Source: Anaeromyxobacter dehalogenans 2CP-1 (GTDB lineage Bacteria; Myxococcota; Myxococcia; Myxococcales; Anaeromyxobacteraceae). From it: 64,000 nucleotides of DNA. A program made the translations under genes and the position numbers. The notes under the pieces were generated by a model. It ran no database searches. It worked only from the letters and a program-made list of their open reading frames with translations, and was not told the origin of the DNA. The stretch covers positions 1,934,001 to 1,998,000 of the forward strand of contig NC_011891.1 of assembly GCF_000022145.1 (NCBI RefSeq), given 5' to 3'. This document shows positions 34,293 to 40,262 of the stretch, piece after piece (the stretch's first letter is position 1; every line of letters starts with the position of its first letter).

Positions 34293-35147
34293 GTGCGCGT
34301 CACCCCGTCCCCCGGTCCCTGGACTGCTTACGCCCGCGCGCTCCTCTCGCGGAAGCCCCGCGTCGCCGCGCCGGGGCAGGGAGGGTTCGCGCTGGAGCGG
34401 CGCGCGGCAGGGATCCGCTGCGACCCGCGGCGGCTCGCGACCTACCGCGACGTGTGCGGGTTCGCCGCCGGCCCCGACCTGCCGGTCACCTATCCGCACG
34501 TGCTCGCCTGGCCGCTGCACCTCGCGCTCCTCACCGCGCCGGAGCTCCCGGTGCGGGCGCTCGGGCTGGTCCACCTCCGCAACCGGATCGACGCGCTCCG
34601 ACCGCTGCCCGAGGGCGTGCCGCTCGAGCTGCGCGCGCGGCTCTCGGGCCCGCGCGAGGCAGGGCGCGGCCAGGAGCTGGACCTGGTGACCGAGGCATGG
34701 GCCGCCGGTGAGCTGGCGTGGCAGGAGGAGGCGGTGCTGCTCGCCCGCCGACCCGGCGCCGGCCGCGGTCCCCCTGCGCCGGGGGACGCGGATCCCGCCG
34801 GCGCGGACGAGCGCCGCTGGGAGGTGCCGGCCGCGACCGGGCGCCGGTACGCGCGTGCGTCGGGCGACTTCAACCCCATCCACCTCTCCGCGCTCACCGC
34901 CCGCGCGTTCGGCTTCGAGCGGGCCATCGCGCACGGCATGTGGTCGCTCGCGCGGATCGCCGCGGAGCTCGGCCCCGGGCTGCCGCCGGGGCCCGTCCGG
35001 CTGGACGCCTCCTTCAGGGCGCCGGTGCTGCTGCCGGCCGCCGTGACGCTGAGGCGCTGGGAGATCGCGGAGGGGCTCGGGTTCGCGCTGCGCGATCGGG
35101 GCGGGAGCCGCCCCCACGTGCTCGGCGCGCTCACGACGCGGCCCTGA
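34293..35147 (+). CDS. MaoC-like (hot-dog) dehydratase/hydratase
   Basis: A 284-residue double hot-dog protein. The hydratase-2 motif YARASGDFNPIH starts at residue 186, carrying the Asp and His used by R-specific enoyl-CoA hydratases, followed by FGFERAIAHGMWSLARI. The N-terminal half is a second, degenerate hot-dog domain (LPVTYPHVLAWPLHLALL). This layout matches MaoC-type proteins that hydrate or dehydrate acyl-CoA or act in fatty acid synthesis. The start is uncertain: GTG 34293 is chosen, with AAGAAGGG just upstream; an earlier in-frame start at 34215 would add an Arg-rich leader. It is divergent from the lipoprotein gene. Confidence 0.82.
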   Translation: MRVTPSPGPWTAYARALLSRKPRVAAPGQGGFALERRAAGIRCDPRRLATYRDVCGFAAGPDLPVTYPHVLAWPLHLALLTAPELPVRALGLVHLRNRIDALRPLPEGVPLELRARLSGPREAGRGQELDLVTEAWAAGELAWQEEAVLLARRPGAGRGPPAPGDADPAGADERRWEVPAATGRRYARASGDFNPIHLSALTARAFGFERAIAHGMWSLARIAAELGPGLPPGPVRLDASFRAPVLLPAAVTLRRWEIAEGLGFALRDRGGSRPHVLGALTTRP

Positions 35148-35283
35148 GCGAGCGGTTCACGGTGAGCGGATGTGCGTGGGGCGGCGCGCCGCGCGCAGGC
35201 CCCCGCATGACTCCCGTTGGGTACACCGGCGGTACTGCGACGCTGAGTCTTGACCTCCTAGGGGGGAGTCTCTTACGGTGAAG

Positions 35284-35374
35284 GGCACCACGCTTCAGGG
35301 CAATTCACCCGCACTTAGGGTGAAGCGCAAAGCCGCGGGTCCGGCGACGCCGGACGGCCGTGGCCGCCGTGGCG
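35284..35374 (+). promoter_or_regulatory. GEMM-class riboswitch (c-di-GMP-I type) candidate
   Basis: The element matches the GEMM layout. Closing stem CCACG (35288-35292) with CGTGG (35368-35372); conserved CAGGGCAA (35296-35303); P1b hairpin TTCACCC-GCACTTA-GGGTGAA (35304-35324); conserved GCGCAAAGCC (35325-35334, consensus GACGCAAAGCC); second hairpin GTCCGGC-GAC-GCCGGAC; then a GGCCGTGGCCGCC 3' segment resembling the usual GACAGCCGGGUUGCCG-type tail. The GNRA loop of P1b is replaced by a 7-base loop. The intact CAGGGCAA favours c-di-GMP over 3',3'-cGAMP, but ligand choice is inference. A possible -35 TTGACC lies at 35250. The element precedes the acetamidase gene by 105 bp. Confidence 0.8.
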
Positions 35375-35394
35375 AGACCGGTCCTCCGGCCCCA

Positions 35395-35450
35395 GCCCAC
35401 GTCTGCCCAGAGCACGCGTGGGCTTCGTCGTTTCGACGGGGCGGACGTGG
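35395..35450 (+). promoter_or_regulatory. Alternative stems after the riboswitch (expression platform candidate)
   Basis: Two stems share the same left arm and cannot form together: GCCCACG (35395-35401) with CGTGGGC (35417-35423), or CCACGTC (35397-35403) with GACGTGG (35444-35450). A smaller CGTCG-TTT-CGACG hairpin (35426-35438) lies between. The ribosome site AGGAG follows at 35467-35471. Pairing is seen in the sequence; a switching role is inferred. Confidence 0.45.
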
Positions 35451-35479
35451 TGAGGACGGACCAGCCAGGAGACGCGTCA

Positions 35480-36796
35480 ATGAGCGTGAAGCACGACAAG
35501 AGTCACGAGGCCGGGGCGACGCACGACTTCCACGGCGGCATCTGCGGCTGCTGCGGGCCGAGCGCGACGCGCGGGATGTCGGGCGCCGAGGTGGACCTCG
35601 CCGTCGAGCAGCGCGGCGAGCGCCTCACGCGGCTCGACGAGGTGCGCGGCGACGACGTGGACCACCTGCTCTCGGCGCGCAGCCGCCGCGGGTTCCTGAA
35701 GGCCGGCGGCCTGTTCGGCGCGCTGGCGGCGGCGGCGCCGGTCCTCTCCCGCGCCCGCGCGGAGGGCACCGGCGGCTTCAGCCTGTTCCAGCAGGGCGGC
35801 GGCCGGGTGCACGTGGTCGAGTCCACCTACGAGACCACGAAGTGGGGCATCTTCGACTCCAACCTGCCCGACATCGTCCAGATCGAGTCCGGGGACGTGG
35901 TCTCGTACCCGAACACCTGGAGCCACTTCCTCAACGACCTGCAGCCGGGCATGCCGATCGAGGAGATCGCGCGCCTGCGCCTCGCCCACCCGGGCGTCGG
36001 GCCGCACTCGATCATCGGCCCCGTCGGCGTGCGCGACGCCGAGCCGGGCGACGTGCTCGAGATCCAGTACCTGCGCGTCCGCCCCACCGACTGGGCGGTC
36101 TGCTTCAACAACCCGGGCGCCCTCGGCACCGGCGCGCTGCCCGACGCCTTCCCGCAGGGGCAGGCCAAGTACTTCGATCTCGACACCGCCAACAACACCT
36201 CCGAGTTCGCGCCGGGCATCCAGCTCCGGCTCGCGCCGTTCCAGGGCACCATGGGCGTCGCGCCGGCGAACGGCGTGTTCCCCACGCCCCCGGGCCACGC
36301 CTACGGCGTGATCAGCTCGGTGCCGCCGGGGCAGCACGCCGGCAACGTGGACTGCCGCGAGGCGGGCGAGGGCTCGCGCCTGTTCGTCCCGGTGTTCCAG
36401 CGCGGCGGCAAGATCTTCACCGGTGACTCGCACGCGCTGCAGGGCGACGGCGAGGTGACGCTCACCGCGATGGAGACCGCGATGAAGGAGATCCGCGTCC
36501 GCGTGATCCTCCACAAGCAGGTCGCGCTCGCCTGGCCGATGCACGAGACGCCGGACGCCTGGATCGTCCACGGCACGAACCCGGACCTCGACACCGCCTT
36601 CCGCATCGCCCTGCTGAACGCGATCGACTTCCTCGAGGCCCGCGCCGGCCTGACCCGCCTCGACGCCTACGCCCTCTGCAGCCTCGCGGTCAGCTTCCGC
36701 GTGACGCAGGTGGTGAACGGCCAGAAGGGCATCTACGGCGTCATCCCGAAGCGCATCTTCCACCCGCAGCTCCGCGCCGCGATGGGCGTGATCTAG
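35480..36796 (+). CDS. Tat-exported acetamidase/formamidase family protein
   Basis: A 438-residue protein of the acetamidase/formamidase (FmdA_AmdA) family, which hydrolyses short amides to ammonium and the acid. The family fold is visible in [15 protein letters not shown]-like strands (here [17 protein letters not shown]), [34 protein letters not shown] and [15 protein letters not shown]. It has a twin-arginine signal SRRGFLK at residues 68-74 followed by a hydrophobic [15 protein letters not shown], so it is exported folded. The n-region is unusually long (67 residues) with a His/Cys cluster [16 protein letters not shown] lies eight bases before the ATG. It is the first gene after the riboswitch and heads a chemotaxis gene pair. 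Confidence 0.88.
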
Positions 36797-36810
36797 CCCG
36801 CGGCCGGATC

Positions 36811-36840
36811 GCCGCTCCGCCGGGCTCCCGGCGGGGCGGC
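36811..36840 (+). terminator. Strong stem-loop between acetamidase and chemoreceptor genes
   Basis: A 13-bp stem (one T-G pair) with loop GCTC: GCCGCTCCGCCGG (36811-36823) pairs with CCGGCGGGGCGGC (36828-36840). It begins 14 bases after the stop codon. It may terminate or attenuate transcription, or protect the upstream mRNA, before the chemoreceptor gene 41 bp further on. Confidence 0.5.
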
Positions 36841-36881
36841 GGTCCACCCGTCACGCCCGCTCTTCTTCACCAGAGGTCACC

Positions 36882-38543
36882 ATGCGGAAGTTCTCGATCG
36901 GCGTCCGCCTCACCTTCGCCTTCATGCTCGTCACCGCCGCGTTCGTGGCGGTCGGCTTCTTCGCGCTGTCGCGCCTGGCCCAGCTCGACCAGGGGCTGGA
37001 CGAGGTGGCGCGCCAGCGCCTCCGCTCGCTCGAGATGGCGATCCGCGGGCTCCACGTGACGGCGCAGCAGGCGAACCACGTCGGCGTCATGCTCTCGACC
37101 GACGATCCCGCCGAGGCGCTCCGGCGCATCGAGACCATCCTCGAGCTTCGCAAGGAGGCGCAGCGGGCGAACGAGGAGGGCGACAAGCTCGCCGCGATGG
37201 AGGGCGGCATCACGGTGGTGGACAACGAGCGCACCAAGCAGGTGCTCGCGGAGCTCGCGGTGCGCCGCGCCCACCTGGGCAAGACGTTCCAGAAGACGCT
37301 CGAGACCGCCCGCACGCTGAACCTGGCCGAGACCAAGCGCGTGACGCGCGACGACCTCGTGCCGGCGCTGACCGCGGTCGAGTTCGGCTGGTCGGACTAC
37401 ACGAAGGCCCAGGGCGCGCAGATGCAGGAGGCGGCCGAGGCCGGGCACGCCATGTACGAGTCGGCCCGGGTGCTGGTGGTGGCGGTGCTGCTCTCCACCG
37501 CGGCGATCGCGATCGTGCTCTCGTTCTGGGTGACGCGCACCATCGTCCTGCCGCTCGGCAGCGCGGTGAAGGCCGCCGACCGGATCGCGGCGGGCGACCT
37601 GCGCGACGCGGTGGAGGTCTCCGGCCGCGACGAGCTGGGCAAGCTGCTCGCCGCGATGAAGACCATGGGCGAGAAGCTGGCGCAGGTGATCTCGGAGGTG
37701 CGCGCCGGCGCCGACGCGCTGGCGGGCGCCTCGTCGCAGGTCTCCTCCACCGCCCAGACGCTCTCGCAGGGCACCGGCGAGCAGGCCGCCAGCGTGGAGG
37801 AGACGACCTCCTCGCTCGAGGCGATGCACGCCTCCATCACGCAGAACGCGGAGAGCGCGCGCCAGACCGAGACCGCCGCGAAGGCGCAGGCGGGCAGCGC
37901 GGGCCGCAGCGGCACGGCCGTCACCGAGACGGTCGCGGCCATGCGCTCCATCGCGGAGAAGATCTCGATCATCGAGGAGATCGCCTACCAGACGAACCTG
38001 CTGGCGCTGAACGCGGCCATCGAGGCCGCCCGCGCCGGCGACCACGGCCGGGGCTTCGCGGTCGTCGCCACCGAGGTGCGCAAGCTGGCCGAGCGCGCGC
38101 AGAAGGCCGCCGGCGAGATCGGCACGCTGGCCGAGAGCTCGCTCTCGGTGGCCGAGGAGAGCGGGCGGCTCATCACCGACCTCGTCCCGGCCATCCAGAA
38201 GACGGCCGACCTGGTGCAGGAGGTGGCGGCGGCGTCGCAGGAGCAGAGCGACCGCGTCTCGCAGGTCAGCAAGGCCATGGGGGTGGTGGACCAGGTCACG
38301 CAGCGGAACGCCACCGCGGCCGAGGAGCTCAGCTCCACCGCCGAGGAGCTGGCGTCGCAGGCCGAGGGCCTGCAGCAGCTCATGGGCTTCTTCACGGTCC
38401 GCGAGGAGCGGAGGAGCGCGCCGCGCCACCTCCCCCTGCGCGCGCCGGCCCCCGCGCCGCTGCCGGCGCTGGACCGTCCCTGGCCGCAGCCCGAGCCGCG
38501 CAACGGCAAGCCCGCCGCAGCCGGCGAGTTCAAGCGGTTCTAG
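36882..38543 (+). CDS. Methyl-accepting chemotaxis protein
   Basis: A 553-residue chemoreceptor. TM1 (about residues 8-30) and TM2 (about 193-216) bound a ~160-residue helical periplasmic domain of the 4HB type ([20 protein letters not shown] in the middle). HAMP spans about 217-270, then the cytoplasmic coiled coil with the conserved hairpin tip [20 protein letters not shown] (residues ~366-385) that contacts CheW and CheA. The C-terminus ends in a Pro-rich tail and EFKRF without an NWETF-type pentapeptide. It is followed by cheW after 8 bp. Neighbouring amidase suggests it could sense amides, ammonium or acids (inference). Confidence 0.95.
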
Positions 38544-38551
38544 GGGCGGCC

Positions 38552-39127
38552 ATGCGCGACGCGGTCGAGGCGGCGGGCGAGCAGGCGCAGTACCTGTCGT
38601 TCCGGATCGACGGGATCGACTACGCGGTCCCCATCCTGAAGGTCCGGGAGATCCTGCAGCACGAGGAGATCACCCGGGTGCCGGGCACGCCGCCCTCGGT
38701 CCGCGGGGTGCTCAACGTCCGCGGGGCGGTGGTGCCGGTGGTGGACCTGGCCGTGAAGTTCGGCGGGTCCGCTTCCCGGCCCGGGCGCTTCACCTGCGTG
38801 CTGGTGGTCGAGGTGGAGGTGACGGGCGGCCGCCTCACGCTCGGGGTGCTGGCCGACGCGGTCAACGAGGTGGTGGCGCTCCGCGCCGACGAGGTCGAGC
38901 CCTCGCCGTCGTTCGGGACCGGCGTGAGCGTCGAGTACCTGGTGGGCATGGGCAAGGTGGGGCGCGGCTTCGTGCTCCTGCTCGACCTGGACCGGGTCCT
39001 GGCCGCGGGCGATCCCGAGCCGGAGCGCGCCGGCGACGCCCGGGCGGACGTGCCGGGCGACGCCTCCGAAGAGGGAGCGCAACCGCCCGAGGCGGTCGCG
39101 GCGGAGGGCGCCGCCGCGCCGGCCTGA
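38552..39127 (+). CDS. cheW: CheW chemotaxis coupling protein
   Basis: A 191-residue CheW. The SH3-like double barrel runs from residue 12 to about 152: QYLSFRIDGIDYAVPILKVREIL, ITRVPGTPPSVRGVLNVRG, VVPVVDLAVKFG and GRGFVLLLDLDRVL are family hallmarks (quoted as separate strands). A C-terminal Glu/Ala-rich extension of about 40 residues is longer than typical. It couples the adjacent receptor (8-bp gap, same operon) to a CheA kinase encoded elsewhere, because no cheA, cheR or cheB is nearby. Confidence 0.94.
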   Translation: MRDAVEAAGEQAQYLSFRIDGIDYAVPILKVREILQHEEITRVPGTPPSVRGVLNVRGAVVPVVDLAVKFGGSASRPGRFTCVLVVEVEVTGGRLTLGVLADAVNEVVALRADEVEPSPSFGTGVSVEYLVGMGKVGRGFVLLLDLDRVLAAGDPEPERAGDARADVPGDASEEGAQPPEAVAAEGAAAPA

Positions 39128-39156
39128 CGGGCGCGCGCTGCCCGGAAATCCGGCAT

Positions 39157-39180
39157 CCGGCGTCGCCGAGGCGACGCCGG
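39157..39180 (+). terminator. Terminator-like stem-loop after cheW
   Basis: CCGGCGTCGC-CGAG-GCGACGCCGG is a perfect 10-bp stem with a tetraloop, 30 bp after the cheW stop. It probably ends the amidase-receptor-cheW transcript, though no T-tract is visible. Confidence 0.55.
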
Positions 39181-39227
39181 CGCGTCGGCCGCGGCCGCAT
39201 CGCGCGGTTTCGCGGGCTGGGCCGCGC

Positions 39228-39242
39228 TGGCACGCACCGCGC
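39228..39242 (+). promoter_or_regulatory. Weak sigma-54-like promoter
   Basis: TGGCAC-N5-GCGC keeps the -24 GG and -12 GC dinucleotides at correct spacing (consensus TGGCAC-N5-TTGC). It lies 28 bp before the NifW-like start. nif genes are commonly sigma-54 dependent, which raises interest, but the -12 element is poor and no NifA site was seen. Confidence 0.3.
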
Positions 39243-39269
39243 ATCTCCGGCGCGCGGAGGTGCCAGGCG

Positions 39270-39527
39270 ATGGGACGAGCGCTGGAGGCGGTGCGGACGC
39301 TGGACCTGCCGCGGCTGTTCGCGTACTTCGGGGTGGAGGCCGACCTGCAGCGGGTCGAGGCCAGCCGGCTCGCCATCGCCACCCGGTTCGACGCGGAGGT
39401 CCGGGAGCTGATCCGGCTCTGCCCGGCGCTGCGCGAGCGGGAGCGCTTCACGGTGCTCCGCGAGGCGCTCCGGCTCGCGTACGAGGTCGGGACGCGGGCC
39501 GTCGAGGGCGCCGGCGCGCCCCGCTGA
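39270..39527 (+). CDS. Small NifW-like protein
   Basis: An 85-residue protein whose pattern matches the nitrogenase-stabilising protein NifW: RLFAYFGVEADLQRVEASRL corresponds to the family's sAEdFLxxFgVpyDxxVVxVxRL region, then FTVLREALRLAYEVGT matches the closing helix. NifW binds MoFe protein and protects it from oxygen in diazotrophs. No other nif gene is in the window, so it is an orphan here; Anaeromyxobacter relatives do carry nif clusters. It is isolated between cheW and convergent yebC. The match is to pattern only, at modest length, so an unrelated small helical protein remains possible. Confidence 0.55.
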   Translation: MGRALEAVRTLDLPRLFAYFGVEADLQRVEASRLAIATRFDAEVRELIRLCPALRERERFTVLREALRLAYEVGTRAVEGAGAPR

Positions 39528-39539
39528 CCTGCCGGGAGC

Positions 39540-40262
39540 CTACGCCAGGTTGTGGAAGACGTGCTGGACGTCCTCGTCCTGCTCGAGCGCGTCCACCAGC
39601 TCGAGCACCTCGCGCGCCTGCTCCTCACCGAGCTGCACCGGCGTCTGCGCCACGTACTCGGACTCGGCCGAGAGCACGTTGAGCTTCCGCTCCTCCAGGG
39701 CGGCCTGGAGCTGGCCGAAGCTCTCGAACGCGCAGCGGATGACGAGCAGCTTCTCGCCCTTCTCGCCGGTGCTCTCGCCCATCTCCTCCAGGCCGTGGTC
39801 GATGAGGTCGAGCTCGAGCGCGTCCTGGTCGATCCCCTCGGGCGCGAGGCGGAACACGCCCATGCGGCGGAACTGGAACGCCACGCTGCCTGTGTTCCCC
39901 ATGTTGCCGCCGTTGTTCTTGAAGTGCATGCGCACGTTCGCGACGGTGCGGACCACGTTGTCCGTCGCGGTCTCGACCATCACCGCGACGCCGTGCGGCG
40001 CGTAGCCCTCGTAGACCACCACCTCGTACGCCTGCTGATCCTGGCCGCTGGCCCGCTTGATGGCGGCCTCGACCTTGTCCTTCGGCATGTTGAGGTGGCG
40101 GGCGTTCTGCAGCACGCGGCGCAGGGCGGGGTTGTTGTCCGGGTTCGGGCCGCCCCCCTTCACCGCGATGGCGATGTCCTTGCTGATGCGCGTGAAGGCC
40201 TTCGCCATCTTGTTCCACCGGGCGAACATGGTGGCCTTGCGCGTCTCGAAGATGCGACCCAT
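39540..40262 (-). CDS. YebC/PmpR family transcriptional or translational regulator
   Basis: A 240-residue member of the YebC/TACO1 family. Typical features: [23 protein letters not shown]-type N-terminus (quoted from two motifs), [31 protein letters not shown]-like helix ([18 protein letters not shown]), [14 protein letters not shown] and the [16 protein letters not shown] loop. The family binds DNA upstream of target genes in Pseudomonas (PmpR) and aids translation of proline-rich stretches in other species. Its start region [18 protein letters not shown] is slightly divergent from the usual MAGHSKWANIKHRK, a common trait of YebC paralogues. It stands 183 bp downstream of the EamA gene on the same strand. 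Confidence 0.92.

Follow-up and report, generated by a model that had tools for sequence, protein, structure and literature searches.

Motility genes are classic targets of GEMM riboswitches, and aptamers for 3',3'-cGAMP, including the Geobacter GEMM-Ib type, carry A rather than G at position 20. Structurally, two papers describe the docking of a GNRA tetraloop in a P3 receptor as a main tertiary contact of the class (PMC3764141, PMC4744006), and a third names position 20 as the selectivity position, describes an inter-helix pair C44-G83, and states that a loop mutation in Cd1 abolished binding (PMC9262584). Judged by titles and abstract openings, none of the papers found has the locus described here as its subject; the single one that joins Anaeromyxobacter, riboswitch and c-di-GMP deals with globin-coupled cyclases, and the word "riboswitch" is absent from the main text of the 2008 genome paper on strain 2CP-C.

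Here we describe a leader RNA of Anaeromyxobacter dehalogenans 2CP-1, located in a window of 64,000 nucleotides (the whole stretch of DNA analysed, whose numbering is used throughout; all features lie on the + strand). Judged by sequence and predicted structure, it is a member of the c-di-GMP-I class whose target is unusual and whose aptamer is reduced. We posit, with a probability of roughly 0.6, that it is a GEMM-I riboswitch that turns an amidase-MCP-cheW operon OFF at high c-di-GMP, most likely through transcription termination. The class and the unusual target put forward in the original prediction are supported, and we add the loss of the tetraloop receptor, a predicted four-arm platform, a promoter-like site and a phylum-wide comparison.

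Class membership and layout of the leader RNA

An Rfam covariance search placed a match to RF01051 (c-di-GMP-I, GEMM-I) at 35289-35371, with 36.3 bits against a gathering score of 35 (E 2.4e-4, computed for 8 kb against 4227 families), a margin of only 1.3 bits. RF01051 was the sole Rfam family above its own cut-off in the 64-kb window, and its one match in the single-contig genome of 5,029,329 bases was at this locus, with two Anaeromyxobacter orthologues scoring 38.9 and 35.6 bits (cut-off 35). A same-phylum model, R1, built from 23 Myxococcota GEMM aptamers with the three Anaeromyxobacter ones left out, found 35288-35372 at 50.5 bits (E 3.1e-12 in 121 kb searched, E-values being rough by the tool's own warning) and the orthologues at 51.2 and 50.3 bits, with no further match at E ≤1 in those 121 kb. 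R1 holds only 11 pairs, RNAalifold having left all of P1 and much of P3 unpaired; two-sided changes occur in 8 of the 11 in its alignment, and the three Anaeromyxobacter sequences alone show no covariation to speak of. The GEMM assignment, for which a covariance-model search had been named as the check, thus stands narrowly above the RF01051 threshold with the Rfam model and is clear with R1.

The aptamer (35288-35372) contains the elements on which the assignment had originally been based: the conserved core segments CAGGGCAA (35296-35303) and GCGCAAAGCC (35325-35334), a 7-bp stem, a second GC hairpin and a closing stem. The closing stem P1 pairs CCACG (35288-35292) with CGTGG (35368-35372). 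The P2 hairpin (35304-35324, earlier called P1b) joins TTCACCC to GGGTGAA (35304-35310/35318-35324) in 7 bp, and its 7-nt loop GCACTTA (35311-35317) replaces the usual GNRA, as predicted. P3, delimited by the covariance alignments at 35332-35365, bears a continuous upper hairpin, GTCCGGC-GAC-GCCGGAC, which is the second GC hairpin and spans 35339-35355.

Upstream, a predicted sigma70-type promoter, TTGACC - 18 - TACGGT (35250-35279), recognized from a phylum-wide pattern count, ends 8 nt before the aptamer. Of 47 GEMM-I places in Myxococcota, 32 carry TTGACN-17/18-TANNNT no more than 75 nt ahead of the aptamer, where 500 shuffles of those stretches yield a mean of 0.02 and a maximum of 1, and a less tight pattern gives 33 of 47; the related genomes among these do not count as independent cases. 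Downstream lie a predicted intrinsic terminator (35395-35433; GC hairpin 35395-35423, tail TTCGTCGTTT 35424-35433) and a Shine-Dalgarno-like AGGAG (35467-35471). Seven sites in the 64 kb, counted on both strands, have 6 or more T in 10, and the terminator site is the one of lowest energy, at -21.9 kcal/mol for a stretch that includes an extra small hairpin; the next-best reaches -14.7, and the terminator hairpin with its outer A-T pair comes to -19.7 kcal/mol. The T tail is weak (6/10), a scan requiring 5 T in 8 does not list the terminator, and standard consensus promoter and terminator scans returned nothing at 35100-35520 or 36600-39600. With 107 nt between the aptamer end and the ATG, the RNA occupies the position of a cis leader with a predicted promoter and expression platform.

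A predicted four-arm expression platform

The pentamer CCACG and its complement recur in P1 and in the terminator hairpin, giving four arms that are invariant in three Anaeromyxobacter genomes: arms 1 and 2 are the 5' and 3' sides of P1 (35288-35292 and 35368-35372), and arms 3 (CCACG, 35397-35401) and 4 (CGTGG, 35417-35421) lie within the 5' and 3' sides of the terminator hairpin. The pairings 1:2 plus 3:4 and 2:3 plus 1:4 are mutually exclusive. Mechanistically, with ligand bound, stem 1:2 would close the aptamer and leave arm 3 free to form hairpin 3:4, at which transcription would stop. Without ligand, the emerging arm 3 would take arm 2, and the released arm 1, carrying along part of the ligand-contacting CAGGGC segment, would capture arm 4, a pairing that would prevent the terminator and let the operon be read. 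Such a device would be an attenuator-like switch whose terminator takes over the 5' aptamer strand together with part of the ligand-contact segment.

Energetically, the antiterminator is the lowest-energy fold up to the tail in all three genomes, tied at the 2CP-1 locus with a terminator fold without P1 (both -76.0 kcal/mol), and the aptamer-plus-terminator fold is higher by 2.2 kcal/mol in 2CP-1 and by 8.6 and 8.6 kcal/mol in the orthologues. The duplex between the 5' aptamer strand and the terminator reaches -26.0, -31.6 and -31.6 kcal/mol, values attained by 4, 0 and 0 of 500 simple shuffles, and the CAGGGC segment matches the complement of the terminator loop exactly in both orthologues and with one mismatch in 2CP-1. 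In a growing-transcript calculation (equilibrium at each length, the ligand being an assumed 8 kcal/mol bonus on P1), the ligand-free RNA passed from P1 to 2:3 to 1:4, with P1 in 2CP-1 falling from 0.73 at 91 nt to 0.01 at 119 nt and 2:3 rising to 0.81. Once the 2CP-1 transcript reached the tail (150 nt), 3:4 was 0.30 without and 1.00 with the bonus, the values in the two orthologues being 0.00 without and 0.53 with it, even though P1, despite the bonus, fell to 0.11 (2CP-1) and 0.00 (orthologues) at 130-131 nt, before arm 4 emerges. At full leader length (206-207 nt) the OFF sign is lost, as the difference vanishes or reverses (3:4 at 0.66, 0.52 and 0.37 without the bonus, and at 0.38, 0.40 and 0.43 with it). 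Because of this result and the tie at -76.0 kcal/mol, we hold the OFF sign with moderate confidence.

The loss of the predicted OFF preference at 206-207 nt counts in favour of a reading in which the same aptamer works with the opposite sign (ON), or at the level of translation through the Shine-Dalgarno-like element at 35467-35471, and one paper reports GEMM-I riboswitches of both signs (pilM, Cd1) and a translational one, Vc2 (PMC9262584). We regard this reading as a serious competitor, if somewhat unlikely: the usual ON switch needs arm 2 in a terminator, whereas hairpin 2:3 is followed by TCTG and no T run, and it is 3:4 that forms the window's strongest hairpin-plus-T-tail site. Termination at high c-di-GMP remains our preferred reading. 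An ancestral antiterminator common to the phylum was also considered and proved not to be general, with 9 of 30 loci having no terminator-like site. Among the 21 loci with such a site, 11 form a duplex that no more than 5% of simple shuffles (≤25 of 500) equal, namely the three from Anaeromyxobacter, L008, L011, L015-L018, L022 and L030, several of which are near-identical.

Predicted ligand selectivity

The ligand and the direction of switching are what we infer for this locus, and for the former the contact bases favour c-di-GMP over 3',3'-cGAMP, because the aligned aptamer has G20. In Vc2 numbering, the RF01051 alignment shows G20 (35299), A47 (35329) and C92 (35367) all present, the latter two being bases that we take to be ligand contacts, together with the bases of the inter-helix pair, C44 (35326) and G83 (35357), for which the alignment speaks to base presence only. 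The mark of the cGAMP type (GEMM-Ib), A at position 20, is absent.

An aptamer sensing 3',3'-cGAMP, or both cyclic dinucleotides, is the next reading to weigh. The 2CP-1 genome has 10 GGDEF matches, 7 of them readable by pattern, with Asp after GHxxG in six and Ser in one; because of that Ser, a cGAMP synthase in the genome is possible. The Ser position is presumably equivalent to that in GacA. In GacA the corresponding residue is a serine (PMC6456294), and another paper treats position 20 as a selectivity factor and no hard filter (PMC9262584). Against this, the RNA has the G20 of c-di-GMP aptamers, a base shared by 29 of 30 Myxococcota aptamers, the exception (L029) having A, which makes cGAMP sensing improbable here and c-di-GMP the ligand we favour. 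Two related observations concern single loci. In the 2CP-1 genome, one GGDEF domain, at L097 (G000:C1:1751151-1751612), has GHLSGS and GGDEY, a pattern resembling that of cGAMP-making Hypr enzymes, and L029 (G156:C580:9146-9225) combines its A20 with a P2 loop of 7 nt and a clear terminator whose tail is rich in T.

Loss of the tetraloop dock

In the covariance alignment, RF01051 positions 51-54 and 67-69, which form the tetraloop receptor in P3, are deleted, as is also seen in L012. The docking of a GNRA tetraloop in P3 is thus absent on both sides in all three Anaeromyxobacter genomes; the original prediction had noted the missing loop and did not mention the missing receptor. The P2 loop is GCACTTA in 2CP-1 and GTACCCA in the other two genomes. 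In the three-genome alignment, the 7 variable aptamer columns are all confined to the loops of P2 and P3 and to the innermost pair of P3, and the core, P1, the P2 stem and P3 apart from that pair are invariant. Variable columns number 29 of 93 in the upstream spacer, 7 of 92 in the aptamer and 2 of 61 in linker plus terminator; the aptamer value is not lower than that of the amidase gene (73/1339) and is close to that of third codon positions (40/439).

Across 30 aptamers of the phylum, the P2 loop is GNRA in 19, GAAAG in 3, an AAA triloop in GGAAACC in 2, and other in 6 (the three of Anaeromyxobacter plus L007, L028 and L029), so an absent GNRA loop is uncommon yet not unique. Since L007, whose P2 loop is GAAG and which lacks these receptor positions as well, passes the RF01051 cut-off (45.9 bits), we did not take the dock as a requirement for membership. 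Evolutionarily, many relatives, mostly of one family (f6, probably Myxococcaceae), have the receptor-less RF03167 as their best model and still retain GAAA, which would fit a stepwise loss of the dock.

These same features could mark a decaying aptamer, one that has lost its dock and binds weakly or no longer, leaving an attenuator-like leader alone, as three genomes are without both the GNRA loop and the receptor and a loop mutation in Cd1 abolishes binding (PMC9262584). We nevertheless consider decay quite unlikely, given that the core, P1, the P2 stem and most of P3 are invariant in genomes whose upstream spacer varies at 29 of 93 columns, and that a receptor-less P3 is also the consensus of RF03167, the best model by E-value for most relatives displayed. 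Weakest of all is a chance GC-rich fold with no riboswitch, for which one could cite the window's GC content of 75.6% and the less striking plain folding energy of the aptamer stretch (z -1.95; 7 of 200 shuffles equally stable or more), and which we dismiss as it is contradicted by E 3e-12 with the independent phylum model R1 and by a promoter-like site, a position and a terminator-like site that are all as expected. As a class member, the 2CP-1 RNA is ordinary; if it binds c-di-GMP, it would be a natural experiment on how much of the GEMM-I fold an aptamer requires, because a contact essential in Cd1 is gone here.

Distribution and targets across Myxococcota

R1 at E 0.01 matched in 70 of 195 Myxococcota genomes, and RF01051 at E 0.001 in 39 of 195. 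Within Anaeromyxobacteraceae, R1 matched in 3 of 24 genomes, the same three as found by RF01051, which at E 1 gave three matches above its cut-off and three weak ones in those 24. Elsewhere in the family, weak RF01051 matches (L031-L034, 16.9-23.3 bits) did not firm up on re-examination. Additional observations include a weak c-di-GMP-I-GGC-like match at L031:134-231 (26.8 bits against a cut-off of 59), in which CGCAAGAG replaces CGCAAAGC; six GEMM-I matches in genome G190 (contigs C479, C523, C39 and C218, two of which carry two each); and two Acido-Lenti-1 RNA matches above cut-off near a GEMM-I locus (L009:1334-1378 and 1184-1229).

The 47 Myxococcota GEMM-I places that we fetched are followed by a beta-propeller gene in 37 cases, by an amidase gene in 3 and by neither in 7 (1.7 kb downstream, same strand, E 1e-6 or better). 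All three amidase-type places are from Anaeromyxobacter, which bears out, within Myxococcota, the earlier view of the gene set as unusual for the class. The propeller proteins downstream of GEMM-I (e.g. L007, L015-L022, L025-L030) are secreted-looking; of the queries compared with Pfam, one (L007) matches PD40 and another no family. One propeller query was found in a single genome (G032) of nine from the genus and is absent from the three riboswitch genomes, and because of that absence either the riboswitch changed target in the Anaeromyxobacter lineage or the operon was acquired together with it.

Three Anaeromyxobacter genomes combine the riboswitch with the Tat-type FmdA/AmdA amidase, the chemoreceptor and cheW, with the order amidase-MCP-cheW kept, and neither the riboswitch nor close orthologues turned up in the rest of the family genomes covered (24, or 9 in the case of the chemoreceptor). 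One genome-contig scan had as its sole result a 98% identical amidase locus in Anaeromyxobacter sp. PSR-1. Elsewhere in the 24 family genomes, the amidase has only a 31% identical partial relative, in G032. Outside the three loci, the next-best matches by score are 57% identical for cheW and 56% for the MCP (the latter among 9 genus genomes), and are probably paralogues. Across the phylum, the next amidase relatives are 40-46% identical, align only from residue 82 or later and sit in genomes without a GEMM-I match, and weaker ones are 29-33% identical. Next to the yebC orthologue of each of five other Anaeromyxobacter genomes (~10 kb each), tblastn at 1e-5 returned no match to the amidase, MCP, cheW or the neighbouring maoC; because the locus is not syntenic in those five, no clean insertion site can be read.

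The predicted amidase-chemotaxis operon

The gene set is as originally claimed. It comprises an FmdA_AmdA family amidase of 438 aa with the Tat-type motif SRRGFLK (35480-36796; PF03069, E 9e-36), a methyl-accepting chemotaxis protein of 553 aa with MCPsignal and HAMP domains (36882-38543; 4HB_MCP_1 at 26.9 bits is just below its 27-bit cut-off), and a CheW of 191 aa (38552-39127; PF01584, E 2.1e-33). Gaps of 85 nt (amidase to MCP) and 8 nt (MCP to cheW) separate them, and the consensus scan gave no promoter and no terminator between the three. We infer both transcription as an operon and the substrate of the amidase. By sequence, the latter is named from its family (PF03069) only, as it scores 84.2 bits with the formamidase equivalog NF045496, far under the 500-bit cut-off. 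Its nearest PDB relative is 3b9t, a "Twin-arginine translocation pathway signal protein" (E 6e-31), with which a retained stretch of 11 residues aligns.

Functionally, low c-di-GMP usually goes with the motile state, and in 2CP-1 it would accompany a secreted amidase, which would release small acids, along with an extra chemoreceptor and CheW. Since formate and acetate serve A. dehalogenans as electron donors (PMC3831638), exporting an amidase next to a chemoreceptor is plausible as a means of freeing and finding such acids. The outcome would be a "cut and taste" module: the amidase would release formate or acetate in the periplasm, to be sensed by the co-transcribed chemoreceptor and CheW. 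That all parts hold jointly, with a natural dock-less GEMM-I aptamer that works, a four-arm switch and control of this secreted module, is a tentative proposal that we offer as possible rather than probable. If c-di-GMP binds, the locus would link this second messenger to chemotaxis and a periplasmic amidase in a soil bacterium that reduces metals.

Comparison with known systems

Compared with RF01051, the leader has the two core segments, P1, P2 and P3, G20, A47, C92, C44 and G83, and a score above cut-off, but it differs in its 7-nt P2 loop, its P3 without receptor and its target operon. The P3 without receptor is shared with RF03167 (c-di-GMP-I-GGC), whose consensus differs in having G where A47 stands here (GACGCGAA vs GCGCAAAG) and in retaining a CGAAAG loop; the 64-kb window holds no RF03167 match above that model's cut-off of 59 bits, and 35329 is A, not G. 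For the PSR-1 orthologue (L023), the best clan match by E-value is RF03167, at 31.4 bits against the cut-off of 59. RF03167 is likewise best by E-value for 16 of 18 non-Anaeromyxobacter loci scanned, 14 of the 16 lying under its cut-off. It is best despite A47 at L002, L004, L006, L008-L011, L013, L016, L017, L019, L022, L025, L026, L028 and L029, and as L002 and L004 pass the cut-off with A47, the model name alone would misname them.

The other Myxococcota GEMM-I RNAs share the phylum and the promoter layout, and most of them match the receptor-less model best; they differ in that most keep a GNRA-type loop and that 37 of the 47 places precede a beta-propeller gene. Among systems described elsewhere, Geobacter GEMM-Ib cGAMP riboswitches have the same fold (PMC9262584), but their regulons include cytochromes and pili (PMC6456294, PMC9262584). 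In its predicted mode of action, the 2CP-1 leader would resemble Clostridium difficile Cd1, compared here by description only, which is reported as a transcriptional OFF switch whose antiterminator unfolds the pocket (PMC9262584), and from which it differs in that Cd1 has the tetraloop contact and controls flagellar genes.
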